A DNA stretch of 43,208 nucleotides from a virus, in the IMG/VR virus record IMGVR_UViG_3300025162_000083, positions 1 to 43,208 of that record; one strand, given 5' to 3'. Every line of letters begins with the position of its first letter. Positions within the stretch are counted from its first letter, which is position 1. The notes under the pieces were generated by a model. It was given only the letters and a program-made list of their open reading frames with translations. It was not told the origin of the DNA and searched no databases. The translations under genes were made by a program, and so were the position numbers. Positions 8,331-40,203 of the stretch are shown one piece after another.

Positions 8331-10379
8331 TTATGCCTCGCCCTTGCTCTTGACCGCGGCGCGGGGGTCCTGCAACGAAACACCGAAATCGTGATACCCG
8401 CGCATCTGAATCCCGAGCGTTCCGAACTCCGCCGCGGCTGTCTCGATGACTGGGGCCTCTTGGCCATTGAGGAACGCCACCTCGATCACCGCCAGGTCCA
8501 TCGGGTCGGCCAGCAGGTAGAACGCCTTGGACGAATAGCCCGTGTACTTCGTGTTCGACAGGTAGCGGCTGACCAGCGGGGCATACTGGCCGCTGTGCGG
8601 GTTGGCGGTCGGATACTTCGTGCTGGCCGTCGTGTCGCGGATCTCGGTGGCGGTGTAAAGCTGCTTGCCCAGCGCCGACAGGGCCGTGGGCAGCAGGAGC
8701 GTCTTGGGCGCCACGGCAATCGGCTTGCCGTCGGTGTCCACCTGATCCATGAACGCCTGCTCCACGGCCGTCAGCCCGTCGATCGACAGGTTCGTCGTCG
8801 CGCCCGACAGGTAATTCTTGTTGCCGGTGGTGAAGAACGCGGCGTTGTTCATGAACACGGTCCAGAACACGTCGTTGATCTTGAGGCCGCTGCCGCGCCC
8901 GAGCTTCTGCGGGACCGTGCTGATCGCGTTCATGTCGTCGTTGATCAGGTCGCGGCGGTCGATGCCCAGCATCAAGCCGTAGGTGTCGGCCTTGTTCGTG
9001 TACGTCTCATTCCCCAGCGTCCCGTGCTTCAGTTGCCCGCCCGGCGCGACCGGCTGGTACTGGTCTGTGCCCGTAAGCCTGAAGCTCGTCACGGCCTTAA
9101 AATCGCGGACTGAACGGACCGCACAGACTTGCCGCCACACTTTTTCGACGCTGAAGAATCCCTGGAGCAGGTACTTGTTGGCGATGTTGGACAGGATGCC
9201 GCCGATGTCCATCGTCGTGCCGCCCTCGGCCTTGACGAACGCGAACCGCAGCACATCTTCCGTGACCTTGGTGCCGCGCCCGGTGTACCCGTTGGCGTAG
9301 GCGGCCTCGATAATCAACTCGCCCAGGCCCAGCCCTTCGCGGGAGCGCTTGCTCGCGGCCTCCAGCACCTTCTCGTCGTACATCTTGACGATCTCGCCGT
9401 TGTCGGGGCTCGACAGCACGGCGGCGGCCTCCAGGACATCCGCATTCAGCGGGGCCTGGCTGCGCGAATGCACATCCGGGGCCTTGGGGCGCTCGGCCCG
9501 CAAGACCTCGCACTCGGCCTGGATCGGCTGCCAGCCCTCAGCGATGGCCTTGGCCTCGATTGTGCCGTGCCTGCCGCCGCAGAGCTTGCGGATGGCGTCG
9601 CATCGGTTCACTTCCAGGACCGCCTCGGCGCGGATCTCGACGGCCGACTTCTCCGGCTTGGCCGTGGACACCGGCGCCACCGGCGGCTTGGCCTTCTCCG
9701 CGTCGAACTGCGCCTGGAGCGTGGTCTTCTGCTCGTCGCTCACGGTCAAGGGGTCGTGCCCGTGGGCGGTAAGCCACTTCTCAAACTCTGTCATGGTCAT
9801 ATCTCCTGCGGCCGCAGCCGCTAGTTGTGCCGACGCGCTGGCGTCCGCGCCGATGCTGACAAAAGAACCCTCGCGCAGCGTGCCGGCCCGAACCACGTAG
9901 AGGGGACCGGCGAACTCGCGACCGTTGACGGTGACACTCTGGCCCTTGTCGATGGCCTCGACCTTTTCGACGCTGGTGCCGTTGCTGACTGGCCATCGGA
10001 ACCCGTTGCGCCCGTGCGCGACGACCATCCCGGCCGGGCTCGCCGGGTCTTCGGCGTTGCCGGTGACAACCCCCTCGACGCGCACCCCCGCGGCGTCGAT
10101 CTGGACGCGCGTGGACTGGCCGACGATCTGGGAGCGGTCGTGATTCAGCAGGACGGCGATGGGCTCGGCGGCTTTGAGCCCGCCCAGGTCCATCACCACC
10201 GGCCGGCCCCAGCCCAACTGCATCACGCCGCCCGAGTAGAGCATCATCGAGAACGTGGGCTGCCGGGCGGGCTGGCCGTCCGAGGCGGTCAACTGCAATT
10301 CGGCCGTGCCGGTGAGCGAAAGCTCGCTCCGCTGGGCGGCCGCCTGGAGGCTACGCCGCGTTTTTCTGTTTGGCCGCAT
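8331..10379 (-). CDS. Prohead protease / major capsid protein fusion
   Basis: A 682-residue protein combining two functions normally on separate genes. Residues about 1-200 resemble a prohead protease: AVLLNHDRSQIVGQ is the typical Asn-His region, and LREGSFVSIGAD is the typical Ser region. A linker of about 170 residues follows, then a Mu gpT/HK97-type major capsid domain (from about residue 375) with DFKAVTSFRLTGTDQYQP and DRRDLINDDMNAI. The ATG at 10379 is chosen because GAGGAGA lies just upstream; it overlaps the portal gene by 29 bases. The protease would cleave itself free during capsid maturation. Such fusions are known in some phages. Confidence 0.85.
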   Translation of the reverse strand: MRPNRKTRRSLQAAAQRSELSLTGTAELQLTASDGQPARQPTFSMMLYSGGVMQLGWGRPVVMDLGGLKAAEPIAVLLNHDRSQIVGQSTRVQIDAAGVRVEGVVTGNAEDPASPAGMVVAHGRNGFRWPVSNGTSVEKVEAIDKGQSVTVNGREFAGPLYVVRAGTLREGSFVSIGADASASAQLAAAAAGDMTMTEFEKWLTAHGHDPLTVSDEQKTTLQAQFDAEKAKPPVAPVSTAKPEKSAVEIRAEAVLEVNRCDAIRKLCGGRHGTIEAKAIAEGWQPIQAECEVLRAERPKAPDVHSRSQAPLNADVLEAAAVLSSPDNGEIVKMYDEKVLEAASKRSREGLGLGELIIEAAYANGYTGRGTKVTEDVLRFAFVKAEGGTTMDIGGILSNIANKYLLQGFFSVEKVWRQVCAVRSVRDFKAVTSFRLTGTDQYQPVAPGGQLKHGTLGNETYTNKADTYGLMLGIDRRDLINDDMNAISTVPQKLGRGSGLKINDVFWTVFMNNAAFFTTGNKNYLSGATTNLSIDGLTAVEQAFMDQVDTDGKPIAVAPKTLLLPTALSALGKQLYTATEIRDTTASTKYPTANPHSGQYAPLVSRYLSNTKYTGYSSKAFYLLADPMDLAVIEVAFLNGQEAPVIETAAAEFGTLGIQMRGYHDFGVSLQDPRAAVKSKGEA

Positions 10380-11823
10380 TGGGCTTCTCCTCATTTCGCG
10401 GAACGGGCGGGGCCTCTTCGGGCTGAGCGACGGTGGGCATGGTCTGGGCCTGCGTGAGCCCCAACTCCTTGGCGAGGGCGACTTCCTTGGCCCGCTGGCG
10501 AAGCTCCGTCTCCCAATCCTTGCCCTGCTTGGCGTACTCGGCCGACAGCGTGGTCGTGTTGGAAGAGAGGCGCGTGGACGCGGCGTTGGCCAGGTCAATC
10601 GGGTTGCCCACGTCACGGCCGTCCCACATCCACTGGTGCGGCAACTCTTCGATACCGTTCAATTCCGGGTAGACCGTGGCGGCCTCGGCCATCCAAGCGT
10701 CGAGGATGCGGTCCAGGATGACGGCCTCGCAGTGCGTCTGATCGACCCGCAGGGAGCGGTAGTAGGTCTGATGGTCCAACTGCCCCGACGCGAAGTTGTA
10801 ACTCGACGAATCGCAGGCGGCGACGTTGAACGGAAGGTTAAGGCAGCGCGCGATCTCCCCAAGGATTTCGCGCTTGAACATCGCGTATGTCGTCGCCGGC
10901 TGCTCGGCCTTGATCTGGTACGGCTCCCAGCCCTCGGGGGCGAAGACGGCCATGTTCCGCTCGAAGTCCATCACGGCCCCGTTGGGCACCTCGGCGGCGG
11001 CTTCGCCCGCCGGGGTCGTGGTCTTCATCACCAGCGCCTGGTCGGCGGCGATCTCGGCCGCGCCGAGCACCGCCAGCGTGAACCGCCGGAGCTGCGCGAA
11101 GAGGGGCAAGGCGGGCATGATGTCGGGCAGGCCCCGCGACTGGCCGGGACGGTCCACGCGATACCAGTGCAGGACCGATTCGGCGGGATACGGGTCAAAG
11201 AGCATCTGCCCGGTCGAAAGCATCGCGCCGGGGTGCATCCGCAGGACGTGGTAGGTGATTGGGTTCCCGTAGGAATCGAATACGATCCCATCGACCTGCT
11301 GCGGCGTCGGCAGGAACAGGTTGGGCGTCGCCACCTGGTCGGCCTCGATCAGCCGCAGGTCCAGCTTGACCGGGCTGGCGAGCTTCGGGTTCGTGGTGAG
11401 GATCGCGAATGCCTCCCCATCCTGCGCGCGTGCCATCCGCATCGTGCGGAGCTTGGCGCCCAGGTCCACGGCCCTGGCCCAGGCGGTGAATGCCTTCTCG
11501 ACCACCCCATTGATGCTGTTGTCGTCTTCCCCGTCGCCCAGCAGAGATTGCAGGCGCGGGCCGGTGCCGATGACGTCGTTGGCGAGCGTCAGCACGATGC
11601 CCCGCGCGTAGGAGTTGTTGGCGACCTCGTAGCGCGAACGCATCCGCAAGGTGCGCCGGACGGCAGGCTGCTGGGCGGCATCGGCGCTCATCGCGTCGGC
11701 GTTGGCCCAATGCTTGTAGGATTCGGGGGTGTTGCGGGCGGCATCGTAAAACGCGCGGATCATCCGGGGCGTGAGGGGGGCGGCCTGCTGCTTCGCGCCG
11801 AAGAGTCTGCGAAGGATGCCCAT
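10351..11823 (-). CDS. Phage portal protein (lambda gpB family)
   Basis: A 490-residue lambda-type portal. It shows the standard path: YDAARNTPESYKHW near the N-terminus, RSRYEVANNSYARGIV, NDVIGTGPRLQ, RMARAQDGEAF, and QTYYRSLRVDQTHCEAVILD near residue 375. The dodecameric portal sits at one capsid vertex, is the docking site for terminase, and later joins the tail. The start at 11823 directly follows the stop of the small upstream gene. It is followed by the overlapping capsid fusion gene. Length and order are normal. Confidence 0.92.
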   Translation of the reverse strand: MGILRRLFGAKQQAAPLTPRMIRAFYDAARNTPESYKHWANADAMSADAAQQPAVRRTLRMRSRYEVANNSYARGIVLTLANDVIGTGPRLQSLLGDGEDDNSINGVVEKAFTAWARAVDLGAKLRTMRMARAQDGEAFAILTTNPKLASPVKLDLRLIEADQVATPNLFLPTPQQVDGIVFDSYGNPITYHVLRMHPGAMLSTGQMLFDPYPAESVLHWYRVDRPGQSRGLPDIMPALPLFAQLRRFTLAVLGAAEIAADQALVMKTTTPAGEAAAEVPNGAVMDFERNMAVFAPEGWEPYQIKAEQPATTYAMFKREILGEIARCLNLPFNVAACDSSSYNFASGQLDHQTYYRSLRVDQTHCEAVILDRILDAWMAEAATVYPELNGIEELPHQWMWDGRDVGNPIDLANAASTRLSSNTTTLSAEYAKQGKDWETELRQRAKEVALAKELGLTQAQTMPTVAQPEEAPPVPRNEEKPNAAKQKNAA

Positions 11824-12021
11824 TTAGACGGGGCTCCCGTGCGTGATCTTCGACCACAACAGCCCGCGCCCGGGCTTCTTCACCGCATCCTTGCCGGAGA
11901 GGTACTTGTCGGCCGCGATCTGCTCGCCCAGCGGATGCTGCTGGACGCTCGTGCCGTCGCCGGAGGCAGACGCCGGCCCGGAGGCGTTTTCGCGGATCGT
12001 GTTGTCGAGGTCTTCCGCCAT
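11824..12021 (-). CDS. Small hypothetical head protein upstream of portal
   Basis: A 65-residue protein beginning MAEDLDNTIRENASGPASAS and ending KPGRGLLWSKITHGSPV. The ATG at 12021 has a GAGAG upstream; in-frame ATGs further upstream are possible but have no better signal. It sits between the large terminase block and the portal, like the small head-tail joining (gpW-type) genes of lambda-like phages, but the sequence does not show a gpW motif to me. The function is unknown. Confidence 0.6.
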   Translation of the reverse strand: MAEDLDNTIRENASGPASASGDGTSVQQHPLGEQIAADKYLSGKDAVKKPGRGLLWSKITHGSPV

Positions 12022-12059
12022 CGGTAGCTCTCGCATCCGACAACCAGCCGCGCGAGCCA

Positions 12060-12108
12060 ATAGAAAAAGGCCGTGCGAGGATGCGGCCCCGCATGGCCTT
12101 GGTTCTAT
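12060..12108 (-). terminator. Rho-independent terminator or attenuator before the portal operon
   Basis: An 11-bp stem (12067-12077 with 12090-12100, one G-U pair) has a further 6-bp outer stem ATAGAA/TTCTAT. On the minus strand the inner stem is followed by TTTTTCTATT, the classic terminator form. It lies after the PEP-CTERM gene and only 39 bases before the start of the portal operon. Late transcription must therefore read through it, or start in the short gap. Confidence 0.65.
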
Positions 12109-12254
12109 GGCTTCGCCCCGGTGATCAAGCCGGTGCGTCGCGCGTTCTGGTTGTCTATGCCAAATCTACCTTACACACAGCGAACTGCAAGCGGATTTCG
12201 GGCAGAGGCGACAGATCATTACACCGGTAGACGTTTGGCGACTGCGCAAGCAAA

Positions 12255-12279
12255 CGGGCGGCCCGGAAAGAGCCGCCCG
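12255..12279 (-). terminator. Terminator of the PEP-CTERM gene
   Basis: A perfect 8-bp stem, CGGGCGGC/GCCGCCCG with a 9-base loop, followed on the minus strand by TTTG. It lies 41 bases downstream of the PEP-CTERM stop codon. This is the normal place for an intrinsic terminator, although its T-run is short. Confidence 0.6.
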
Positions 12280-12319
12280 CGTGAGTCTTCGTCGTCGCCT
12301 CTGGTATGGTGAGGTGTGT

Positions 12320-13432
12320 CTACTTCCGCCGACGGCGGATCATCGCCATCCCGCCAAGGGCCAGCAGCGACATGGTGGCGGGCTCGGGGACAACGGCCAC
12401 CCATGCCTCCTGGGTCCCATTGTGTATTCCAGCACCAACGATTACGCTACCGTCTGACGACACATCGTATGGCCAAAGCTGCCACCCATCCAAGTTCAGA
12501 CCTTTGCTTTCCAAAAGCAACTTCAGGTCCTGCATTCCCTCCGAAGCATCCCAAATGAAACCACCTTCACCACCCCAGGCCCCCTCCCCGAAGCCGACTA
12601 TCACCGAACCATCTGCCGAGACCCCGGTCGCGTGGCCTTCGCCACCGAGTTCGACCGAACCCGTCTCCTTGGTCCAGCGGAACGGTCGCCGTCCATACCC
12701 GTACAAATTGGTTGGGAAGTAGGCATACCCGACGATCGTTGTACCGTCCGCTGACATCTTCACCGGATTCGTGCCGTTGTTACTCCCTCCTATAGGATCG
12801 CCAATCGCAATCGCTCCAGTTCCACCAGTCCAGACAAACCCACCGCCCGTTCTGAAGACTCCCGTAACGACAGCCCCATCTGAAGAACAGCTAGCGGCGC
12901 TGAACGTATTCGAGCCCAGTGTCTGTACGCCTGTGGCAGCCGTCCAACGTGTAGCTTCTGTGCCAAACGACGATGTTCCATAGCCGACAATGACTGAGCC
13001 GTCTGCACTGCTTCCTCTAGCCCATCCGGCAAAATCACCGCCCGACAAGTCCCCAAGCCCCTTCATTCCTTCGCTACTGGTCCATCGGAAGCCTTCGTAG
13101 CCCTGGCTCGTATATGCCATTCCGACTATGACTGCACCATTGCCAGAAGCACCAAGCGCGTAGTTGTTGCGAGAGCCATTCTGAAGATCGCCAAGGGACG
13201 TGATCGTGCCCTTTCGATCCCATGCGACTGCCTGCGTAGGTCCATTACTGTCACTGCGCCCCACGATGACCGACCCGTCGGCAGAGATTGCATATGCGAC
13301 GCTGTCATTATTGCCCGGCAGAAAACCGAGAGGCTTGAAACTTGCCTGTGCCAAAGCGGCCGTGGTGGTGCCGAAGGACATGAACAGGACGGTCAAAGCC
13401 AGACGGATCATACGCGTGCGCACGTCGAACAT
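12320..13432 (-). CDS. PEP-CTERM exported protein with HAF repeats (cargo gene)
   Basis: A 370-residue secreted protein. Residues 1-30 are a signal peptide (basic start, then LALTVLFMSFGTTTAALAQA). The body consists of about six HAF-type repeats built on SADGSVIVG and a following F/W-RWT, GM-LGDL pattern. Residues about 348-370 are a PEP-CTERM sorting signal, VPEPATMSLLALGGMAMIRR, recognised by host exosortase systems for export to the cell surface or matrix. It has its own promoter and terminators, a lower GC look than its neighbours, and interrupts the head operon. This marks it as a moron: a lysogenic conversion gene that would be shown on the lysogen's surface. Its target or ligand is unknown. 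The ATG at 13432 has GAGGAG in the leader. Confidence 0.85.
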   Translation of the reverse strand: MFDVRTRMIRLALTVLFMSFGTTTAALAQASFKPLGFLPGNNDSVAYAISADGSVIVGRSDSNGPTQAVAWDRKGTITSLGDLQNGSRNNYALGASGNGAVIVGMAYTSQGYEGFRWTSSEGMKGLGDLSGGDFAGWARGSSADGSVIVGYGTSSFGTEATRWTAATGVQTLGSNTFSAASCSSDGAVVTGVFRTGGGFVWTGGTGAIAIGDPIGGSNNGTNPVKMSADGTTIVGYAYFPTNLYGYGRRPFRWTKETGSVELGGEGHATGVSADGSVIVGFGEGAWGGEGGFIWDASEGMQDLKLLLESKGLNLDGWQLWPYDVSSDGSVIVGAGIHNGTQEAWVAVVPEPATMSLLALGGMAMIRRRRK

Positions 13433-13575
13433 GGAGGGGGCTCCTCAGGTTGAAGATCGGAACGTAGTCAGCTTGGCCGTGCGGCCTTGGGGAAAGTGCG
13501 AGTGAGCGGGAACGCACAGACCCCCGACTTGACCTTACCCGCCGCTTACCCAAAGCGGGAGTCGGAGCAGACAAT

Positions 13576-13603
13576 ATATTACCGCGCATCCCCGATCCAT
13601 CAA
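13576..13603 (-). promoter_or_regulatory. Candidate sigma-70-type promoter for the PEP-CTERM gene
   Basis: On the minus strand TTGATG (13603-13598) and TAATAT (13581-13576) are separated by 16 bases, in an AT-rich patch within a GC-rich genome. The implied leader is about 135 bases and contains two inverted repeats, including GGCCG-CA-CGGCC. Base matches only, with no expression evidence. Confidence 0.4.
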
Positions 13604-13683
13604 TAGGAAAACTCCACAAATATCACCACCAGCAGGCAGTTAGGGCGAACACCTGACCCCAGCCAATCCGCGAAGCACGCCGC

Positions 13684-13881
13684 CTACGCTCCCGCCCTCT
13701 CCCACGTCGTCATCCGCTTGCCGCAGTTTCGGCACTCGCGGCGACGGGCAATCCGGCCTCCCCGCGCAGGGCGGGTATAGATTACGTGGAAGTGCTTGCA
13801 GCCGCACCAGCGGCACTCAAGGCCAACGTCGGCTGGAGGCTGACCGGTCGGGGGTTCCTGGATGTTCGTTCCATTGGCCAT
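13684..13881 (-). CDS. NrdR-like zinc-ribbon protein
   Basis: A 65-residue protein carrying CRWCGC near residue 24 and CRNCGKRMTTWE near the C-terminus, with RGGRIARRREC between. This is the pattern of the N-terminal zinc ribbon of NrdR, but without NrdR's ATP-cone domain. Such small zinc ribbons are common phage transcription or packaging accessories. The ATG at 13881 has AGGAG upstream, formed by the last codons of the terminase. It is the last gene before the PEP-CTERM cargo. Confidence 0.7.
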   Translation of the reverse strand: MANGTNIQEPPTGQPPADVGLECRWCGCKHFHVIYTRPARGGRIARRRECRNCGKRMTTWERAGA

Positions 13882-13884
13882 GAG

Positions 13885-15951
13885 CTATCTCCTGATTAGG
13901 TCCGCCTGGGTGTACTTCTTCCGCGCCCGACGCGCCGGCTGCTCGTGCCCCGGTAGCAGGATGCCCTCCATCGAGGCCGCAACCGCACAGCCGGCCAGGC
14001 AATCCAGCCAGTGGTTGTCGGGCTTGCTGGGCAACTGCGTCCATTCGTGAACGGTTCGGCCGTGACCCTGCGTCGTCGTCCAGGTCTCGCTCGCGGCGAC
14101 GTGCTGGGCGAAGAGTTCGTGATCGCGCCCCTGCCCGAAGATCGTCAGGCTGCCGGGCTCCCCGGCCGCCGTGAAGAGGGCGTTGTGGACCGTCGTCTTC
14201 CAGTAGTTCACGTCCGACGCCACGTGCGGGAACTCCGCCGTCTGGCGCACGCTTGGGATGTACCAGTGGTGGCCCATCGTCTCGCCGGGCCGGCGCGAGT
14301 AGCTGCTCATCGGCTTCGAGCCTGCCCGGATGCCGATGCCCTTGCATAGCATCATGGCCGACCCGCCGGCCTTGTGCTTGACGGCCGCCACGATGCCGGG
14401 CTTGTAGCCCATATCCACCAGCAAGCGGTCGATCCGCATCAAGCCCCCGCCCCGGCGGAAGTCCGTCGCCAGGTACGCCGAGACCAGCTTTTCCAGCCCC
14501 GCCTGAATGGCGCCGTCGGGCCCAACGCCGGGGAAGGTCCGCCCCAACGTCCTGCGGGCGCCGTCCAGCGCGAACATCCGATCCGACTGCTCGGGGAACG
14601 TCCCGTAATCGACCACGAATCCCGTGAAGTCCTCCTGCCAGCCGCACACGGCGTAGTAGAGCAGCCGGTTGTGAACGTCCGCGAACATCGTCAGCTTCGT
14701 GCAGGCCAGGGGCACCTCGCGGCAGGCCCGGCCGTTGGACTTGTCGCAGACCATCGGCACCGTGAGGACTTCGCTCCGCAGTTCCGCCGACTTCATGGGC
14801 TCGTTCTGGTACTCGGCCCAGAAAGCCCGCTCGTTGTCCAGCTTCAGGTTCATCGCGTGCTGGATCGCGGAGAGTTCGCCCCGCGACGCCAGATACCGCG
14901 CCGGCCAAGCCACCATCGACCCGGCGTCCATCTCTTCCCGGCGGGCCAAGTAGAACTCGGTGGCCTCGTGCCCGTCGCCGTCGGCGCGCAGCGATTCATC
15001 GCGGATGCGGGCATACTCGGCCCAGAGTTTCTCGCTGGAGGGGAAGCTGTAGACCAGCTTGGTCCGCTCCCCGTGCCAGGACGGGTTCTTTTGACGGTCC
15101 AGAAGCTGGTCGGCAAGGTCGCCGCCCTGGATCACCGTGCAAGGGATGATGATGGCCGTCCGCTGGCCCGGCCCGGCGAGGCCCTTGGTCGCCCCGTTGA
15201 TGATCGACAGGCGCTCGGCGGTCTGTAGGAGCGAGTGGGCCGACTGGTCGGTCTGCGGGTCGTCGCACACCACCAGCGTCGGGCGGACTTGGCTGCCGTC
15301 GGCGCGAACGTGCAACGCGCCGCGGATGTTGCCCGTGATGCCCGACACGCGGATAATCGACCCGCTGCACCGGCTGCCGGGGATCGTCGGCATGACGAGT
15401 TCATCCACGCCCCAGCCGATCCGCGTGAGGACGCCGTAGTACCGCTGGCCCGTACAGCGCCGCGCCTCGCCCTCCAGACAGCGGATGGGGTAGATGGCCT
15501 CGGGGTAGTCTTCCAGCAGCAGGTCGTTGCCGATCAGGTGGCTCTTGATGTTCGCCAGCATGGAAAGGGCGGAATCCTGGGCGCTGGCGATCAGGAACAC
15601 GAACTCGTGCTGCCCGGACAGGACCGCCCACAGCACGGCCACGAGGCACAGGGTCGTCTTGCCGCTGCCGCGCGGCATGGCCACGGCCAGCGTCTCGTGA
15701 TACCGCACGACGCGCTCGATCTTGGCAATGACGCGGAGGTGGTCCTGGGACCATGCCAGCGTGAACAGGTGGGCGAAGTAGGTCTCGCAGAAGAACTTGA
15801 AGTCCCGATCCGCCCGGGTGCGCCGCTTGGCATCCTTCATCGACGGCCGCGGCGCGATGTCCTGCCCGGAGAGCGTGATGGCGGAGGACCGGGCGCGGGC
15901 GCGCTCCTTCGCCTCGCGGTACAACTCCGGCTTGGACGGTCTGCGCATCAT
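13885..15951 (-). CDS. terL: Terminase large subunit
   Basis: A 688-residue packaging ATPase/nuclease of the GpA-like group. Walker A is MPRGSGKTT at residues 92-100, and Walker B is TLVVCDDPQTD at about 225-235. The nuclease half includes LTMFADVHNRLLYY, LLVDMGYKPGIV, and SKPDNHWLDCLAGCAVAAS near the end, which is typical of this family. It cuts phage DNA and pumps it through the portal. The ATG at 15951 overlaps the stop of the ParB-like gene as ATGA, so the two are translationally coupled. Confidence 0.93.
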   Translation of the reverse strand: MMRRPSKPELYREAKERARARSSAITLSGQDIAPRPSMKDAKRRTRADRDFKFFCETYFAHLFTLAWSQDHLRVIAKIERVVRYHETLAVAMPRGSGKTTLCLVAVLWAVLSGQHEFVFLIASAQDSALSMLANIKSHLIGNDLLLEDYPEAIYPIRCLEGEARRCTGQRYYGVLTRIGWGVDELVMPTIPGSRCSGSIIRVSGITGNIRGALHVRADGSQVRPTLVVCDDPQTDQSAHSLLQTAERLSIINGATKGLAGPGQRTAIIIPCTVIQGGDLADQLLDRQKNPSWHGERTKLVYSFPSSEKLWAEYARIRDESLRADGDGHEATEFYLARREEMDAGSMVAWPARYLASRGELSAIQHAMNLKLDNERAFWAEYQNEPMKSAELRSEVLTVPMVCDKSNGRACREVPLACTKLTMFADVHNRLLYYAVCGWQEDFTGFVVDYGTFPEQSDRMFALDGARRTLGRTFPGVGPDGAIQAGLEKLVSAYLATDFRRGGGLMRIDRLLVDMGYKPGIVAAVKHKAGGSAMMLCKGIGIRAGSKPMSSYSRRPGETMGHHWYIPSVRQTAEFPHVASDVNYWKTTVHNALFTAAGEPGSLTIFGQGRDHELFAQHVAASETWTTTQGHGRTVHEWTQLPSKPDNHWLDCLAGCAVAASMEGILLPGHEQPARRARKKYTQADLIRR

Positions 15952-16706
15952 GCCGATGCCTTCTTCGCCTTGGACGCCGGGCGCGGGATCTCTTCGAGGT
16001 GCTTCTCCGCCAGGTCCAGCAGCAGGCCGAAGGCCGTGGCCGTGTTCTTGACCCCGGCTTGGGCCTTGGCGATGGTCAGGGCGTCGAGCATCCGGTCATA
16101 ATCAGCCCGGCGGTTGACCCAGGTGGCGTCGCCCATGGTCTGCTCCATCACCTTGTCAAAGAGCTTCTCCGCCCGCTCGACCTCTTCCGGCAGGAAGCAG
16201 ACGGAGACCACGCGGTACTCTAGGTGGCTCTCCGACAGGGGATCGAGGTTCGGCGGGTTCATCCGGCCCAGCACTACGTCGTCCAGGCCGGAATACTCCT
16301 TCAGGGCCACGTCGTTGATCTCGTCGTACAGCTCGCGGAGGATCGCCATGTCGTCCTGTCCGGCGATGGCGTTGTGGCTGAGTTGGATGGCCACCTGTTG
16401 GGCGTGGGTCAACTCCTGGTCGGTGTAGAGGACGGGGATATCGGTGAGCCCGGCGTCCTGGGCTGCCTTCACGCGATGGTTGCCGGAGAGAATCTTGTAC
16501 CGGTCGCCCTGCTTGATGGCGAAGGGAACGCTGGTCAGGCAGCCGTCGCGCCGGATGTTCTCCACCAACTGGCGATACTGCTCCGCCCGCATGAACCGGG
16601 CGTTCTTCTCCAGGAAGTCGCACTGCGCGATCGGCACGACCGCCATGCGGACGCTCGTGGGCGCGAGCTTGGCATTTACTGCTTCGAGTGATTGGCTATC
16701 CACCAT
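15948..16706 (-). CDS. ParB-like nuclease-domain protein
   Basis: A 252-residue protein with a ParB/sulfiredoxin N-terminal domain: VPIAQCDFLEKNARFM, then ILSGNHRVKAAQDAGLTDIP (the conserved GxHR box, about residues 70-90) and LSHNAIAGQDD. The C-terminal half is helical. The start at 16706 follows GGAAGG and overlaps the upstream gene by 31 bases. ParB-like proteins of this type sit beside terminase and DNA modification genes in many phages, where they may bind or nick DNA or act on nucleotides. Here the neighbours are a methyltransferase/Mom-like fusion and the terminase. Confidence 0.8.
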   Translation of the reverse strand: MVDSQSLEAVNAKLAPTSVRMAVVPIAQCDFLEKNARFMRAEQYRQLVENIRRDGCLTSVPFAIKQGDRYKILSGNHRVKAAQDAGLTDIPVLYTDQELTHAQQVAIQLSHNAIAGQDDMAILRELYDEINDVALKEYSGLDDVVLGRMNPPNLDPLSESHLEYRVVSVCFLPEEVERAEKLFDKVMEQTMGDATWVNRRADYDRMLDALTIAKAQAGVKNTATAFGLLLDLAEKHLEEIPRPASKAKKASA

Positions 16707-17962
16707 TGGAATCCTTCCGCCAGGCTCCAGCGCCCAGCCTGCCCCAAGTAGTTGACCTTGCCCTCTCCGCGGCTGTGGACATCGAACAGGCCGCGATACT
16801 TCATGCTGGCCGGCTTGTCGGTGAACGCCGTGGTCCCGATGATCTTGATCCGCGCGCAAAGCCACTGCTCAAGATCGGCCTGGACCTCCTTGCTCGCCAG
16901 GCACGCCAGGATCAGCTTGCTGAGCCGTTTGTGCGGGCTGGGGCGGACGGCGAAGTCGGCCATGAGGTAGACATCGCAGGGCAAAGGGCCCCTCGGCTGA
17001 CTGACGCCGAACGCGCCCACCAGCCGGCCGTCCGACAGGATGGCATAGCACCGCTCGGGGACCACGGGCATGATCTTCGGATTCAGGTACATGCTGCGGA
17101 TCGCGTTCATCACCTTGCCCTCGATCCGCACGACCTGCGGCGGAACGATCACTTCGTCATTCCGCGGGGGCCAGGGGTTGACGCCCAGCGTCTGCCGGGC
17201 CGTCGCCAAGCGGGGCGGGGCCTGGTCGCAGTACATGAACACGGGCTTCGACGCCATCGAGGTCTGCACGGTGGCGACGTGCTGATGGCCCAGCGCGGGC
17301 TGCTCGACATCGGAAGAGATCATCCAGTGCCGGAAGGACCGCACCGTCTGGCTGAACCGCTCGAAGTCTTCGGGGCTGAAAAGCTGGTAGCTCGGGCGCG
17401 GCCAGTCGAACACCGCGTCGAGCTTCTTGAACAGGTGCTCGTACCCGCCCTTGTACGTCGGCGGAAAGCTGATGCAGACGGAATCCCTATCGGCGGCGCC
17501 GAGGAACTCGCGGCAGTCGCCGGCGGTGTAGCTGGCGATCTTGAACCCCGCCAGGGCCTTGGTGACGCGCTGGACCGTCTTGGCGTGAAGTGCCGGCCAG
17601 CGGCGGGCGTATTCCTCGCGCATCCGCCGGGCGTAGGCGTTGTCGCCCCCGACCTTGAGCATCTCACCTGTCAGCAGCAGCGTGGCGATTGTTGGCGGGC
17701 CGGGGTCCAGGTAGGGTTCGAGCCAGTGAAGGTCGGGCGCCTTGACTACGTAGCGATGCCGGGTGTTCGCCAGGTGCCAGCCCAGGGCGCACGAGTAGAT
17801 GGACACGTCGTTGCTGTGGATCGCCCCGACGCCACAGCGGGCCAGGATGCGTTCGACGGTGAAGTTGCCGCAACAGGCAACGTAGACGCTCAGGCCCTTC
17901 CAGGAGCCCGCCGCCGTCTCCAGCACCGCTCGCATGTACCTGTTGATCGAACCGATGAACAT
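16676..17962 (-). CDS. Adenine methyltransferase-like / Mom-like acyltransferase fusion (anti-restriction)
   Basis: A 428-residue two-domain protein. Residues 25-45 (VYVACCGNFTVERIL) resemble a SAM-binding loop followed by IHSNDVSIYS. At 164-174 ISFPPTYKGGY stands where adenine methylases have DPPY. Residues about 275-400 (RLVGAFGVSQP, DVYLMADFAV, RLSKLILACLASKEVQ, TTAFTDKPASMKYRG) look like the GNAT-fold domain of phage Mu Mom-type DNA modification proteins. The protein matches what databases call putative antirestriction adenine methyltransferase. The likely role is to modify adenines in phage DNA to resist host restriction. The start at 17962 is chosen for the GGAGG/GGAAG upstream. Chemistry is not provable from sequence. 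Confidence 0.7.
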   Translation of the reverse strand: MFIGSINRYMRAVLETAAGSWKGLSVYVACCGNFTVERILARCGVGAIHSNDVSIYSCALGWHLANTRHRYVVKAPDLHWLEPYLDPGPPTIATLLLTGEMLKVGGDNAYARRMREEYARRWPALHAKTVQRVTKALAGFKIASYTAGDCREFLGAADRDSVCISFPPTYKGGYEHLFKKLDAVFDWPRPSYQLFSPEDFERFSQTVRSFRHWMISSDVEQPALGHQHVATVQTSMASKPVFMYCDQAPPRLATARQTLGVNPWPPRNDEVIVPPQVVRIEGKVMNAIRSMYLNPKIMPVVPERCYAILSDGRLVGAFGVSQPRGPLPCDVYLMADFAVRPSPHKRLSKLILACLASKEVQADLEQWLCARIKIIGTTAFTDKPASMKYRGLFDVHSRGEGKVNYLGQAGRWSLAEGFQWWIANHSKQ

Positions 17963-18056
17963 ATCCGCTTCCGTGCCTCCTACAGCGCCGCCCTGGCCGT
18001 GAGCCAGGTCCTGTCGCCTGGAGGGCGACCGTGCCCAGACACCGGCGGCGCGAAAC

Positions 18057-18485
18057 TCAAAACAGCCCTGGCGGTCCAACCGCCGGCGCGGGGGCCGGCC
18101 GCTCCAGGTGGACCACCTCCGCCTGCCACAACGCGGCCAACCGCTCCGCGATGACCTTCCGGTGGCACACGTTCACGTCCCGGCAGCCGCACAGCAGCAC
18201 CACCGGACGGCCGGAGGCGGTCAGTTCCCGCAGGCGCTTCTCGCCCGCGTCGAAGTCGGCGATCTGAATCTCCGCGAACGTGCCTTTGTAGTTCACGTTC
18301 CCGAAGGCTTTCAGCCAGATGTAGCCGTCGCCCATCCGCTCCCGCAGGGCGGAGGTATTGAAGGCCGGCGCCCACCGGGTCCGGGGGACCATCCGCACGT
18401 CCACGAGGACGGCGCCCAGTTCACGGACGGCCTTTTCCAGGTCGTCGGGCTTCCAACCGCTGTAGCCGATCGTGTAAATCGTCAT
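18057..18485 (-). CDS. DUF488 family protein
   Basis: A 142-residue protein beginning MTIYTIGYSGWKPDDLEKAV, the signature opening of DUF488, followed by VLVDVRMVPRTRWAPAFN and RPVVLLCGCRDVNVCHRKVI. The family is widespread, includes a conserved Cys-rich CxxxxxCHR motif, and has no settled biochemical role. The ATG at 18485 has AGGAG 8 bases upstream. An alternative ATG at 18542 would overlap the preceding stop as ATGA and add 19 residues. It is encoded just before the methyltransferase/Mom-like gene, so it may serve the DNA modification module (inference). Confidence 0.85.
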   Translation of the reverse strand: MTIYTIGYSGWKPDDLEKAVRELGAVLVDVRMVPRTRWAPAFNTSALRERMGDGYIWLKAFGNVNYKGTFAEIQIADFDAGEKRLRELTASGRPVVLLCGCRDVNVCHRKVIAERLAALWQAEVVHLERPAPAPAVGPPGLF

Positions 18486-18538
18486 CGCCCGCTCCTTCTC
18501 GGCGTTGCGCCGGTCGATGTCCCAATCGGAGGATTTGC

Positions 18539-19027
18539 TCATGGTGTCGCCCCTTCCCCGGCCGTTGCCATAAGTTCTTCGATCCGCTGGACCGCAAGGC
18601 GGGCGTGTTCCCGCAGGGGATACGCTTCGCTGGTCAGGCCCAGGGGCAGAAGATGCTCCCCGATGGCCGCCAGTTCTTCCGACGCTTCGCTGCCGGCGCT
18701 GTCGGCGTCCGAAAGGCGGGTAGGCCGGTAGAGGCCCGTGAGGCGATTGATCTCCCGCTGGACGTCCAGGGCCTTGGCAAGGTTGCCACCTTCACCGACG
18801 CGGATGCACCGGGAATACAGGTCATTCAGCCGCGTCATCGCCGTACCGAGAAGCTCATCCCGGTTGTACTCCGAGGCCAGGGTGAGCCGCTTGCGGGCCT
18901 CCGCGATGACGGCCTTGACCTCGGCGGGGTCCACATTGAGCTTGGCGATGCAGGCGGTTTCGAGGTCGGCGCCCACCAGGCCGCTGACCATCCACAAAAG
19001 CACCCGTTCGATGGCTGAATCATTCAT
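18539..19027 (-). CDS. Putative small terminase subunit
   Basis: A 162-residue helical protein starting MNDSAIERVLLWMVSGLVGA. The middle segment ALDVQREINRLTGLYRPTRL resembles DNA-packaging or small-terminase proteins seen before large terminase genes. Its N-terminal helices could form the DNA-binding part. A GTG at 19033 is an alternative start. It is separated from the large terminase by the modification genes, which is an unusual split. The assignment rests on position and weak similarity. Confidence 0.45.
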   Translation of the reverse strand: MNDSAIERVLLWMVSGLVGADLETACIAKLNVDPAEVKAVIAEARKRLTLASEYNRDELLGTAMTRLNDLYSRCIRVGEGGNLAKALDVQREINRLTGLYRPTRLSDADSAGSEASEELAAIGEHLLPLGLTSEAYPLREHARLAVQRIEELMATAGEGATP

Positions 19028-19071
19028 CGTCACGGGTGCATTAGAACAGCTTATAGCTTCTCTGTCAAGTA

Positions 19072-19707
19072 TTAGCTTTGGCAGTCTGTGAGCTTGAACT
19101 GCTTGCGCCACTGGACCAAGGCCCGGTGGTATTGCGAATGAACCGCCAGGACGTTCTTGCCTTGAAGGGCCGCAATCTGGGGGATGCTCTTGCCCTGGAG
19201 CACCAGCCGCATCAGGTCCGCGGCTTGCGGGTTGTGACCCTGAAGCCACGTGAGCATTGAGGAGATGTCCTCGCTTGCGTCCCGCTGCTCGATTTCCCGG
19301 CTGTCATCGCTGACCAGTGCGGAGGCCAAGCTGAACTTGCCTTCCCCGCCTTCATGGATGAACGTGGGCTTCTTCATCTTGCCGGCCATCGCGGCCTTGT
19401 AGTTCTTCTTCTTCAGGACGGCCATTTCATCCCGGCCCCGCGAAAGCGCCCAGCGGATATGGACGTTCGCGAACCCGGAGAAGTCGGCTGCCTTCGTGAT
19501 GTCGTACTGCGTGGCGGCATTGACGAGGCCCAGGTTGGCATAGCCTTCCAGGTCGTCCTGGTCGAAGTTGCAGCCCCAGCGGAAGAACGCCGACTTGGCC
19601 ATCCGCTTGGCCATCGGGAGGTTGTCCTCGATTGCCTGCTGGAAGTTGAACGATGCGGCGGGAACTTGAGATTCAACGGCGACTGCGGTAGCTTGTGCAA
19701 GGGTCAT
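19072..19707 (-). CDS. Phage sigma factor (sigma-70 region 2 type)
   Basis: A 211-residue protein with a sigma-70 region 2 at residues 28-95: DNLPMAKRMAKSAFFRW, then DQDDLEGYANLGLVNAATQY and DFSGFANVHIRWALSRGRDE. The C-terminal portion (about 165-205) looks like a region 4 helix-turn-helix with KSIPQIAALQGKNVLAVHSQ and YHRALVQWRKQF. It is the first gene of the late block, so it probably directs host RNA polymerase to late phage promoters. The chosen ATG at 19707 has AAAGGTG upstream; its leader is highly structured. Confidence 0.8.
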   Translation of the reverse strand: MTLAQATAVAVESQVPAASFNFQQAIEDNLPMAKRMAKSAFFRWGCNFDQDDLEGYANLGLVNAATQYDITKAADFSGFANVHIRWALSRGRDEMAVLKKKNYKAAMAGKMKKPTFIHEGGEGKFSLASALVSDDSREIEQRDASEDISSMLTWLQGHNPQAADLMRLVLQGKSIPQIAALQGKNVLAVHSQYHRALVQWRKQFKLTDCQS

Positions 19708-19733
19708 GGAAAGCGCACCTTTCTGTGATCCAG

Positions 19734-19793
19734 GCCGGCGTGGTGTTACTAGCACCGCGTCGGCCACTTGTTTTCCGGCCCGGACCATCCGGG
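19734..19793 (-). promoter_or_regulatory. Structured leader of the sigma gene (two hairpins)
   Basis: One hairpin pairs 19734-19745 with 19753-19764: 12 bp, two of them G-U, with a 7-base loop. A second pairs CCCGGA (19079+700, i.e. 19779-19784) with TCCGGG (19788-19793) around a 3-base loop. Both lie between the sigma gene start and its probable promoter. Neither is followed by a T-run, so they are more likely regulatory or mRNA-stabilising than terminators. Confidence 0.5.
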
Positions 19794-20103
19794 TCAGACA
19801 AAGCCTGTTTCGTTTTCAACTTGCTGCCCGTAAGCCTCTACGCTTCCGGTACTTATGTGCTTCCTGATGATTTAAGTATATGATGGAACACGACTTATGA
19901 CACCAAATAGCGGCCGCCACGAAAGAATAATTCATCGCTCTAAGCGTATAGAAGTGATTGCATTACAGCGACTTGCGGAATCAATGTACGCGAATTCCTA
20001 CGATTTTACTCGCGTGTTTGCGGCGTAACGTCCGCTAGGGCCACGATTTCCGTAGCTTGCCAGAGCGGCTACCAGGGCTGGGCGGCCGCGTGGGTGCGGC
20101 AGG

Positions 20104-20254: not shown

Positions 20255-20395
20255 TGTTGGCAAGGATCGCGTCGGAACTTCATAGCTGGCGGCAGATTCA
20301 AGTCTTGTCGCCGCCGCATTGATCACCGTATGATGGAGCCGTTGGCCGGCCCCACCGGGGAGACCTTCGCCAGACTGGACCAAAGGAGAACGTCG

Positions 20396-21616
20396 ATGCC
20401 TGACCAGTTCAAACACTATTGGCCGCTGACAGAGGAGGAGAAGACGGAAGTCTGGGAGACTGGCGTCATCGTCCTCGACACGAATGTCTACCTGCACATC
20501 TATCGCTTTCCCCCTAAGGAGCGGGATCGACTGCTCCAGATACTCGGATCCCCAAAAGTCCAGAATCGGCTCTGGGTTCCCCACCAGGTGGCGGAGGAAT
20601 TCTACCGCAATCGCCTGACAGTGATCGGCGAGCAAATAACAGCGGCAAAGAAACTTCTCGGCTCATCAGACAAGGTGATGACCGACTTCTTCGCATCCCT
20701 GGATGACACAATCCGCAAGCACCACCCACTGATCGACAGGGACGACTGGAAAGAATCCCTCGGAGCCACCATCGCAGCCCTCAAGACCAAGTATGAGGCT
20801 GCCAAGGCACTGTACCCCGTGTCAATGAACGAAGACCCCTTCCTAGAGCGCGTGCGAACCGTAATGGGTGGTCGGATTGGCGCACCCATGCCAGACGAAG
20901 AGATGAAAGCAATCCGAGAGGAAGCCAAGGAACGATTCGCCAAGGGCATTCCACCTGGATATGAGGACGCCAAGAAGGATGGCGATCGAGCGATGGGTGA
21001 CCTGATCCTGTGGAAACAGGCGCTCAAGGAGATGGAGAAGCGGAAAGCACACCTTGTCCTGGTCGTGGATGACCGGAAAGAGGACTGGTGGCTCAAGAAA
21101 CAAGGGGCACTTCTTGGTCCGCGCCCGGAACTGCGGAAGGAGTATCGTGAAAAGACCGGCAAGGACGTTGATTTCGCCACATCCGAGCGGTTCTTTGAGT
21201 GGGCAACCGTGTATCTGAACCTTGAATCCGCAGAAGCATTCCAGGAAGCGTTGGCGGAGGTGATGTCCCAGACAAATCTGTCGCGCGCGCTGAAGCTACA
21301 TTCAGGATGGAAAGGGTACAACCTCGATCAACTGGGTTCTGATGTCCCCATTTCTCCTGCAAAAGACGACATCGCCACCTCAGAAACACCCGACCAGATG
21401 GCCGAGTGGTTTCTTGAAAATTACGAAGATCCATCCAACAGTGTCCCCTATGAGTCCGCCGAAGGCGGTTATCAATACATGAATGGTGGACCGTATTATG
21501 CTGCCGAGGTTCTCCGCGAGAACTTCCCGGATGCAGACGAGGCGTCAATCCAGAAGGCTGCTGCTGCGGTCAGCGAAGAAGGCGGTCCCGACTGGGTCCG
21601 CAGAGAAGATTATTAG
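20396..21616 (+). CDS. PIN-like nuclease domain protein (PIN_8/DUF4935-like)
   Basis: A 406-residue protein whose first 290 or so residues match the large PIN_8 (DUF4935-like) family. GVIVLDTNVYLHIYRFP supplies the first acidic residue of a PIN active site, and WVPHQVAEEFYRNRL the next conserved helix. AMGDLILWKQALKEM and LVLVVDDRKEDWW carry the later acidic residues. PIN domains are usually metal-dependent RNases. The C-terminal 100 residues are acidic and unassigned. The ATG at 20396 has AGGAG 7 bases upstream. It is on the opposite strand from nearly everything else and lies next to attP, the usual spot for prophage cargo such as abortive-infection genes. A defence role is inference. Confidence 0.8.
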   Translation: MPDQFKHYWPLTEEEKTEVWETGVIVLDTNVYLHIYRFPPKERDRLLQILGSPKVQNRLWVPHQVAEEFYRNRLTVIGEQITAAKKLLGSSDKVMTDFFASLDDTIRKHHPLIDRDDWKESLGATIAALKTKYEAAKALYPVSMNEDPFLERVRTVMGGRIGAPMPDEEMKAIREEAKERFAKGIPPGYEDAKKDGDRAMGDLILWKQALKEMEKRKAHLVLVVDDRKEDWWLKKQGALLGPRPELRKEYREKTGKDVDFATSERFFEWATVYLNLESAEAFQEALAEVMSQTNLSRALKLHSGWKGYNLDQLGSDVPISPAKDDIATSETPDQMAEWFLENYEDPSNSVPYESAEGGYQYMNGGPYYAAEVLRENFPDADEASIQKAAAAVSEEGGPDWVRREDY

Positions 21617-21943: not shown

Positions 21944-23665
21944 TCATTGCTGGCCGCCCTCCACCTTGGCCGATGCCTTCACCATTGCCACGATGCCCGC
22001 CTTGAGGGCGTCCGGCAGGGACGGCCAAGCGTCCATGATCGCGACCAGATCGGCGGACATGGGCTCGGGCGATTCAGGACGGTTGTTGCCAGGTTGTGGT
22101 GACTGCGCGCTCATTGGCGCGCTATTCGGGCCATCGCAAGATTGCGTAAGTTCTTGCTGTGTTGCTGCTTGGTTGGTGAGCGTCTCCGGTCTTCTAAACC
22201 GCAGGTTTCGGGTTCGAGCCCCGACGGGCGCAGTCGTGACGGATAGTGCCGGTTGTTGACAAGTGCCGACAGGTGCAAGGAGTTGCAGCGTTTCCGATTG
22301 GCCGGCGTCAAGAGGAACATCTTGCCGGTTGATGACAGGTTTTGCCATGCCGTGAGCCTTGCGCGCTCTGTCTGGCGCTATACCACTTCCGGGCCTTCCG
22401 TCATAGGTTCCTGTCGCCTTGGCTTCTTGCTGGTCCGGCGTGTCCTTCATCGGTTCCAAGTTGGGCAAGGCGTCGAGGGCCTTGGTATGGTCCGCAATCT
22501 GGACGTGAGCGTATCGGCCCAAGGTCAGCATCGGGCTACTGTGCCGGGCCAAGTCCTGCGCCACCTTCACCGACGCCCCACTCTGCACCAAGCGGCTGAT
22601 GAACGTATGGCGTAAGGCGTGGAAGTCACAGAACTGCCCTGCCGCATCTTCGTAAGCCAGGAAGTGACTTTCCGCCCGCTCTGCCTTGTCCTTCTCGTTC
22701 GCTCCTTCGCCAATCCAGGACTGCCGGGCTGCGTCGAGATCCGCGCGCATCAGCATGACGGGCTTCTCCGGCATGGCGAAAACCACTTGGCCCGCCGCCT
22801 TGCCGTCCAGCCAGGGCGCCAGCAGGTCCGCTAGGTCGGGCCGAATCGGCTGCACATCCTTCCGCCGGTGCTTGCTGTATCCCGCCTCAATCGTGATCGT
22901 CGGCGGGTCGGCGTCCAGGTCGAAGGACTCGGACGTAAGGCTACCAATCTCTGATGCCCGGAAGCCGGTTCCCACGGCCACGCGGTAGAGCATGGCCCGA
23001 TCGACCCCGGCCATGCCCAGCACCGTCGGCCCGGCTTGGGCCGTCTGAATCAGTCGGGTTATCTCATCATCCGTCATGGCCCGGCGATCATGGCGACGGT
23101 CCAACTTGACGTTGAAGCCCTTGAGCCCTACCAACGAATCTGCCCGCGCGCGATGGTCCGTCCAGAGCCAGCGTGAGAATTGCTTTATGGCCCGCAGGTG
23201 GTGATTCACCGTCTGGAGGCTCTTGGTTTGCTTGCTGTTCTTGCTCTTGACCTGATCGCGGACGGCCGCAAGAGCGGCCTGTACCGCCGACGGGACTAGC
23301 TGGCTGATCCGCTCGGCCTTGGCGAGCTTCAGGATCACCAAGACCCGCCCGCGAACCTGGGCGGCCTGCTTCGCGCTTACGCCTTTGCCCACCAGCACGG
23401 CGTAGAAGTCCGCCATGTGTCCCCCCACCAGCAGGCCCGCGGCGTCCTTCTCGACCATCGGCCTGAGTTCCTCGACAGCGAAGCGGTCGGCCTGGGGGTC
23501 GATCAAGCCGCTGCGGCGCTGGAAGGCGTCAGTTTCCAGTTTGTCGGCCAGGGACTTCGTTGCCTTGTGATCGGTGCATCCGGTGACGACCTTCCGCACG
23601 CGCGGCCGGACGTAGTATGCGATCATCCACTTGCCTGTTGTCTTGTTCTTGAAGATGCTCGCCAC
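21944..23665 (-). CDS. int: Tyrosine recombinase integrase
   Basis: A 573-residue phage integrase. Catalytic residues are all present: R236 (GTGFRASEI), K265 (GYSKHRRKD), H349 and R352 (HALRHTF), H375 (LARHSS), and nucleophile Y385 (LGRYAHV). Residues about 80-170 form the core-binding domain. Beyond the catalytic domain is a long tail (about 410-573). Within it, residues 478-493 (APVGARTRNLRFRRP) are encoded by the tRNA-like attP core on the opposite strand. It catalyses integration into and excision from a host tRNA-Arg gene. The start at 23665 lies 3 bases after the XRE gene. Confidence 0.93.
   Translation of the reverse strand: MASIFKNKTTGKWMIAYYVRPRVRKVVTGCTDHKATKSLADKLETDAFQRRSGLIDPQADRFAVEELRPMVEKDAAGLLVGGHMADFYAVLVGKGVSAKQAAQVRGRVLVILKLAKAERISQLVPSAVQAALAAVRDQVKSKNSKQTKSLQTVNHHLRAIKQFSRWLWTDHRARADSLVGLKGFNVKLDRRHDRRAMTDDEITRLIQTAQAGPTVLGMAGVDRAMLYRVAVGTGFRASEIGSLTSESFDLDADPPTITIEAGYSKHRRKDVQPIRPDLADLLAPWLDGKAAGQVVFAMPEKPVMLMRADLDAARQSWIGEGANEKDKAERAESHFLAYEDAAGQFCDFHALRHTFISRLVQSGASVKVAQDLARHSSPMLTLGRYAHVQIADHTKALDALPNLEPMKDTPDQQEAKATGTYDGRPGSGIAPDRARKAHGMAKPVINRQDVPLDAGQSETLQLLAPVGTCQQPALSVTTAPVGARTRNLRFRRPETLTNQAATQQELTQSCDGPNSAPMSAQSPQPGNNRPESPEPMSADLVAIMDAWPSLPDALKAGIVAMVKASAKVEGGQQ
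22187..22232 (+). other. attP core: 3' part of tRNA-Arg(TCT)
   Basis: The plus strand reads as the 3' half of a tRNA: an anticodon stem-loop with loop CTTCTAA (anticodon TCT), a T-arm TCGGG-TTCGAGC-CCCGA with perfect pairing, and an acceptor 3' strand CGGGCGC followed by discriminator A. The matching 5' acceptor strand GCGCCCG is absent upstream, so this is not a complete tRNA gene. It is what a phage carries to rebuild the host tRNA on integration. It lies inside the integrase coding sequence. Confidence 0.8.
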
Positions 23666-32566: not shown

Positions 32567-33006
32567 TGGCTGCTTAGGTGGAACTCCATCGGATAGAAAG
32601 CGTTTCCGCTGGCGTCTTTTTCCTGTCGGGGATGGTTGAAGATCAGGTGAATGGGAAGCGAGGCGCCTCGGTAATTCACCATCAGGTCCGCGCCACGGAC
32701 GATCTCGCCACCGAAGACGACCTGGATGTCCAGAAGAAGCCGATTCCCAAGATCGCTGGCCGCCTTGTTCAATTGGGAACGAATCTCTATGGCGACCTCC
32801 CTGTCCCTGGGCTTGGCGGCGAACAAGACCTCCTCCAAACCTACGACCTGCCATCTAGAGAACCTGGGGAACGGCAAGCGACCTTCTTCGTCGATCTCCC
32901 GCAGGAAGTCCAGGATGCCGACGACGTTCTCTGGAGGCACAGGCACGAAGCCATTAGGCTTGTGCGGCTGCATATTCGACAATTCCATCAACTTGTATCC
33001 GGGCAT
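32563..33006 (-). CDS. Small unknown subunit in the BREX-like operon
   Basis: A 147-residue protein between the methylase and helicase genes. Its N-terminus is MPGYKLMELSNMQPHKPNGF, and a conserved-looking C-terminal half includes NRLLLDIQVVFGGEIVRGAD and SLPIHLIFNHPRQEK. GAGGTG lies 6 bases before the ATG at 33006, and the stop is coupled to the helicase start. Such tight packing suggests a dedicated partner of one of them. No known BREX small subunit (BrxA, BrxB, BrxF) is recognisable in it. Confidence 0.65.
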   Translation of the reverse strand: MPGYKLMELSNMQPHKPNGFVPVPPENVVGILDFLREIDEEGRLPFPRFSRWQVVGLEEVLFAAKPRDREVAIEIRSQLNKAASDLGNRLLLDIQVVFGGEIVRGADLMVNYRGASLPIHLIFNHPRQEKDASGNAFYPMEFHLSSQ

Positions 33007-33016
33007 GGCGTCACCT

Positions 33017-36106: not shown

Positions 36107-36124
36107 GCGCGATGCACTCCTTGC

Positions 36125-37117: not shown

Positions 37118-37120
37118 AGC

Positions 37121-39946: not shown

Positions 39947-40203
39947 TCTCGAAGCTCCCAGTCCGGCAAGGATCAGTGAGGCGGCCACGCTCGCCGTCGT
40001 CGCTCGCAACGTGTCCAGCGGGCCTGCGTGCGGCAGCCCCGACAACACGTCTTAACAGCTTTTTCCGGCCAAGACTGCATCTGGCTTGGCCCCGCAACGC
40101 CTTAGAGTGGGTTGACCGCGGGAATGTACCAGCAATCGCCCCCGATTTCCAGTGACTAACTCTCGGCCACCTTGCCGCTGCCCTCAGCAGAGGTCACAGC
40201 GGC

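Follow-up and report, generated by a model that had tools for sequence, protein, structure and literature searches.

A PEP-CTERM protein gene as variable cargo between the terminase and portal genes of related phages

Why does a phage carry, among its head genes, a gene for a protein with a PEP-CTERM sorting tail: is it cargo with a use, a passenger, a late or virion protein, or an artefact? The window, i.e. the whole stretch of DNA analysed, is the 43,208-base IMG/VR virus record IMGVR_UViG_3300025162_000083 (positions 1-43,208). Its tape-measure and tail-fibre genes together with an integrase gene suggest that the virus is probably a tailed, temperate phage, and the integrase makes plausible the lysogeny supposed in an initial annotation of this DNA. 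The gene in question lies on the same strand as its neighbours, with the terminase large subunit (TerL) and Zn-ribbon genes on one side and a small ORF and the portal gene on the other, agreeing with the placement described in that annotation. The features of the locus, with the integrase, are:

21944..23665, minus strand: tyrosine integrase (PF00589, E 2.4e-18; PHROG integrase)
13885..15951, minus strand: terminase large subunit, TerL (profile match)
13684..13881, minus strand: small Zn-ribbon gene, NrdR N-terminal-like, adjoining TerL in relatives; left border of the slot
13576..13603, minus strand: promoter-like site (-35 TTGATG 13603..13598, 16-base spacer, -10 TAATAT 13581..13576)
13433..13569, minus strand: 5' leader with the GCTCCGAC motif (13568..13561), a motif common to phage cargo and chromosomal PEP-CTERM genes
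12320..13432, minus strand: cargo gene for a PEP-CTERM/HAF-repeat protein (370 aa, ATG start)
12250..12280, minus strand: GC-rich terminator-like hairpin 3' of the stop codon, with a poor U tract
12030..12157, minus strand: conserved structured RNA at the 3' slot edge, between the cargo gene and the portal operon and containing a hairpin at 12093..12074
11824..12060, minus strand: small conserved ORF preceding the portal gene; right border of the slot
10351..11823, minus strand: portal protein, lambda family (profile match)
8331..10616, minus strand: capsid/protease (profile match)

The small ORF probably has its true start at an ATG further in, since the listed TTG falls within the RNA element. 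Elsewhere in the window, helicase, methyltransferase and ATPase genes lie between the tail-fibre and replication genes (29747-40048, minus strand); PADLOC matches there to HmaA (E 5e-103), HmaB (E 1e-42) and HmaC (E 2e-11), with a weak PglZ match at 36125-37117, make this region a possible phage-borne defence system. A PIN_8 domain protein with a weak HEPN-like C-terminal match is encoded at 20330-21616 on the plus strand, opposite to its neighbours.

The HAF repeats and PEP-CTERM tail first recognized from the sequence alone in the cargo protein are confirmed by profile searches. PF07589 (PEP-CTERM) matches residues 348-369 with 27.6 bits against a cut-off of 20.7, TIGR02595 is also above its cut-off, and the HAF repeat model TIGR02913 matches three stretches (E 2.3e-14, 53.1 bits against a cut-off of 22.65). 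The proposed signal peptide fits by hydropathy alone: the N-terminus has a hydrophobic segment ending in ...TAALAQ (19-residue hydropathy 1.49, with 1.39 at the C-terminus and 0.88 in the middle), and the interior has no segment as hydrophobic. A single-sequence AlphaFold2 model of the protein was poor (pLDDT 38.6) and was discarded. In the class of G001, a metagenome-assembled genome (MAG) discussed below, 119 of 298 genomes encode a relative of the protein, the best being 43% identical; among viral contigs relatives were found in its own population only, and among annotated phages none were found.

The gene has a GC content of 0.58 and a GC3 of 0.61, while GC3 is 0.87-0.92 in the TerL, portal, capsid and tape-measure genes. 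So sharp a difference from the neighbours could mean that a host gene had been joined to the phage contig by misassembly, or that host DNA contaminates the record. We consider this hardly credible, since a second contig, IMGVR_UViG_3300009502_001540, covers window positions 8815-19823 at 99.97% and so spans the locus (though it may be from the same population), and since seven other viral contigs have a PEP-CTERM gene before the portal gene.

These seven related contigs, which answer the suggestion of the initial annotation that other phages be searched for PEP-CTERM genes here, came from portal-protein searches that returned 80 viral and 21 genome loci (the nearest of the genome loci belonging to planctomycete MAGs), with more obtained by using the portals of relatives as queries. 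We define the slot as the interval from the Zn-ribbon or TerL gene to the small gene preceding the portal gene; in relatives its length varies between roughly 50 bp and 7 kb (about 50-7060 bp). It holds a PEP-CTERM gene in the window and in L007 (the same contig as L104), L105, L118, L120 and L136; in L008 and L010 such a gene lies immediately before the portal gene, and the contig ends within it. A PF07589 search of the entire records of 99 viral portal relatives, with one matching whole MAG left out of the count, gave matches above cut-off in the slot, or immediately ahead of the portal gene, in seven records (L008, L010, L104, L105, L118, L120 and L136) and outside it in two. The slots make up 6.1% of the searched bases, and seven of nine by chance would have P 1e-7, a value to be taken as a guide only, given the kinship of the records and the selection of half of them for large slots. 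L118, L120 and L136 score weakly, with PF07589 over the cut-off in the genome search and under it in the single-protein scan; TIGR02595 is above cut-off in all three. The two matches outside the slot are in the records of L024 (53393-53458) and L048 (4670-4735).

Other relatives have other genes in the slot, or none. The cargo gene is absent or replaced in close relatives, and most relatives with intact head genes lack it. On the portal tree the PEP-CTERM state requires seven changes and is unclustered (130 of 500 shuffles as low); the window sits on a long branch of this tree and its placement is unsure. L104, L105, L106 and L108 have very similar portals and differing slots. Defence models match the slots of L083 (GajA, E 9e-165; GajB, E 2e-148), L091 (AbiEi and AbiEii), L109 (AbiU-like), L122 (AbiJ, partial), L159 (a kinase, PD-T4-6-like, partial) and L028 (Fic, PDC-S24); the remaining slots have occupants without a match, and many are empty or have a tRNA gene alone. 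The site is thus a variable cargo slot in which PEP-CTERM genes recur and turn over. That it is shared with defence genes is no more than suggestive, and circumstantial as regards superinfection exclusion.

Two further observations concern slot contents. (i) L083:5737-9007 is a complete Gabija pair on a related phage contig inside a planctomycete MAG. (ii) A tRNA gene directly precedes the small gene and portal gene in L112 (962-1033), L029 (1238-1309) and L118 (2239-2330), and in many relatives the tRNA at the slot edge is assigned to Met by ARAGORN.

The slot PEP-CTERM proteins have little in common beyond their tails. Most pairs align over the last ~22 residues only; those aligning further are L008/L010, L105/L120 and L105/L136. 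Their other regions include beta-propeller-like repeats (L007, L118 and L136), an FGE-sulfatase domain (L105 and L120), a dockerin domain (L010) and a caspase-like region (L136, and L105 by similarity). The caspase-like PEP-CTERM cargo (L105:2800-4632 and L136:1614-3479) is an unexpected combination for a secreted protein.

PEP-CTERM genes appear in a wider set of viral contigs too. Searching viral contigs with a DNA pattern for the tail gave at least 119 matching stretches; in the 80 loci listed (L220-L299), 76 matches pass a simple test for a PEP-CTERM-like protein end, though chance probably accounts for a few. One family accounts for 27 of these PEP-CTERM-like proteins. In a limited search, 15 of 75 loci had a terminase-, portal-, primase- or antiterminator-type neighbour, such proteins being among the neighbours in L225, L251 and L253; host DNA may be present in some of these contigs.

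The initial annotation had given the gene its own promoter-like sequence and two terminators, and these fared unevenly. A generic promoter scan with a 9-of-12 threshold found no site for the cargo gene, the hexamers of the window being weak, but an equivalent site scores 9-11 of 12 in L105, L118, L120 and L136. The window and these four share an upstream layout: a TTGACR-like hexamer separated by 16 bases from TANNAT, followed by a leader that starts GCTC(C/A)G(A/C)C. A regular expression for promoter and leader had five matches across the collected loci, each of them ahead of PEP-CTERM cargo. In L007 the equivalent position has a good promoter but no leader motif. Both hairpins proposed as terminators (12280..12250 and 12093..12074) are there, and the first is also found in L007, L105, L008 and L010, but its U tract is poor and the second is part of the larger conserved RNA. 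Leader folding was no better than in shuffles (z -0.19), so we claim no structured leader.

In every slot seen to hold one, the PEP-CTERM gene runs in the direction of the portal gene, and thus of the late genes, so expression by late read-through is possible. From this, and from the position of the gene within the head-gene cluster on the same strand, it might be supposed that the protein is a late product with a role in assembly or egress, or that it is virion-associated. We regard such a role as improbable: the protein has a signal-peptide-like N-terminus and a membrane-sorting tail and no PHROG match, the gene is dispensed with by most relatives whose head genes are intact, and its type of promoter and leader also precedes chromosomal PEP-CTERM genes.

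Those chromosomal cases led us to drop an earlier view of the leader as a phage-specific feature. A 17-base form of the promoter-leader pattern had three matches in the 298 genomes of G001's class, and the reversed control had none; two matches lie directly upstream of PEP-CTERM ORFs and the third precedes masked sequence. Nothing was found around the two by tblastn with phage head proteins. Over 151 nt the phage leader of L120 and the leader of chromosomal L363 are 77% identical, and their proteins are 46% identical. A stricter leader pattern had no match in 397 genomes, which says nothing of absence, since its spacing was off by one base and L363 would have escaped it. Since about one chance match is expected in 298 genomes by our estimate, and since the motif was absent from all 20 sampled PEP-CTERM genes of G001, the chromosomal link depends on two clear cases. 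The L120/L363 pair and the genome matches suggest that some phages carry complete host-type units, and we infer from these sequence similarities, with good support, that entire host transcription units were probably captured.

The RNA element at the 3' border of the slot (12030-12157) folds at -70.6 kcal/mol (z -6.9). In an alignment of 39 sequences (the window and 38 relatives), 93.6% of cells pair, against 40-45% with partners slid, and 17 of 35 pairs have changed on both sides. A covariance model also finds the RNA in L229, L101 and L247, which are outside the model. An Rfam search of the leader and the RNA element gave nothing beyond tRNA genes and one chance-level match. Just upstream of the RNA there is in most cases a promoter-like site (mean score 7.0, against 5.0 in shuffled sequence); our guess is that the element may restart late-gene transcription beyond the slot.

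Neither the window record nor any of 11 other viral records yielded an exosortase, so the cargo protein would depend on a host enzyme, as the initial annotation had foreseen. Three MAGs that hold related portals (G001, G002 and G003) have two exosortases each; a host without exosortase, which would have spoken against display, is thus not what these genomes show. The host is probably a planctomycete, judging from the related portals in planctomycete MAG contigs and from the relatives of the cargo protein; this MAG-based assignment runs via related portals and not the window's own, and phage contigs can be mis-binned.

G001 has 86 PEP-CTERM matches, so that random capture of host DNA would often yield such a gene. 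Perhaps, then, a tolerant slot gains and loses host transcription units that help neither phage nor host. The high turnover on the portal tree accords with this, as do the closest cellular relatives, which at ~43% identity point to no single favoured gene. We nevertheless judge neutral carriage, though a real rival, the less likely reading, because eight viral records, the window among them, have such units with long open reading frames and conserved tails, five units have the common leader motif, defence systems occupy the same slot, and PEP-CTERM ORFs lie near terminase genes in other viral contigs as well.

We prefer, with a probability of roughly 0.6, to read the cargo gene as a moron with host-type signals, its product presumably displayed by the host exosortase in a case of lysogenic conversion, and the benefit to the prophage most likely being a changed host surface. 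The claim that it is independent cargo holds up well: the composition is foreign, the presence between phage genes is sporadic (the marks of a moron), and promoter and leader are common to other cargo. As to the promoter and terminator of its own that a moron would have, these are sites predicted from sequence, the window promoter being under the generic threshold. In the proposed course of events, a self-contained unit of host origin (promoter, leader, PEP-CTERM ORF and terminator) would enter the slot before the portal operon and be transcribed by host RNA polymerase from its host-type promoter. Export of the protein would follow the Sec route; the host exosortase would then act on its PEP-CTERM tail, and its repeat-rich ectodomain would end up at the surface or in the matrix. 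The altered surface might benefit the prophage through protection against other phages or through effects on adhesion or matrix; expression in the lysogen, display and benefit are all presumed here, and the receptor blocking first proposed is one possibility. What the initial annotation observed is thus confirmed, and its interpretation partly supported.

A broader reading can be put forward more tentatively, and we would sooner doubt than accept it: that phages of several lineages use the host exosortase as an interchangeable display system, and that the fixed slot takes up complete host PEP-CTERM units and keeps leader and tail while swapping ectodomains, giving a surface-level prophage defence beside intracellular ones such as Gabija.

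Many environmental bacteria have surfaces and matrices shaped by PEP-CTERM/exosortase proteins. Were phages to supply them, lysogeny would directly alter surface and biofilm traits, in planctomycetes and others; by way of the slot a resident virus may re-dress or protect its host. A hotspot where defence genes and surface proteins occur together hints at a connection that can be tested, and the slot is a simple place to seek new phage-borne defence genes. In the open-access papers searched we found no description of phage PEP-CTERM genes, nor any of this slot position before the portal gene.

Cargo and defence hotspots of phages and prophages likewise keep one position while the genes in it change, Gabija and abortive-infection genes being among these; here surface-sorted proteins are part of the repertoire. 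The proposed placement of a phage gene product on the host cell surface has a parallel in Ltp of Streptococcus thermophilus phage TP-J34, a superinfection-exclusion surface lipoprotein encoded in the lysogeny module, for which exclusion has been tested (PMC3952083); the present protein has instead a PEP-CTERM tag and a gene among the head genes, and is known from sequence. The LPXTG surface proteins SasX/SesI of staphylococcal phiSPbeta-like prophages (PMC5088179) are also prophage-encoded, with a signal peptide (a putative one in our case) and a C-terminal sorting tag, and need a host sorting enzyme. Theirs is the sortase/LPXTG system of Gram-positives, with essentially one protein, whereas here exosortase/PEP-CTERM would serve many ectodomains in one slot. 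The chromosomal PEP-CTERM/exosortase system (Haft et al. 2006, PMC1569441; the word 'phage' is absent from its text) resembles the phage case in the PEP motif, helix and basic cluster at the C-terminus and in the diversity of the proteins otherwise; its signal peptides and its single-gene operons with a long upstream region have predicted counterparts here. The difference is that here the gene lies in a phage cargo slot without an exosortase.
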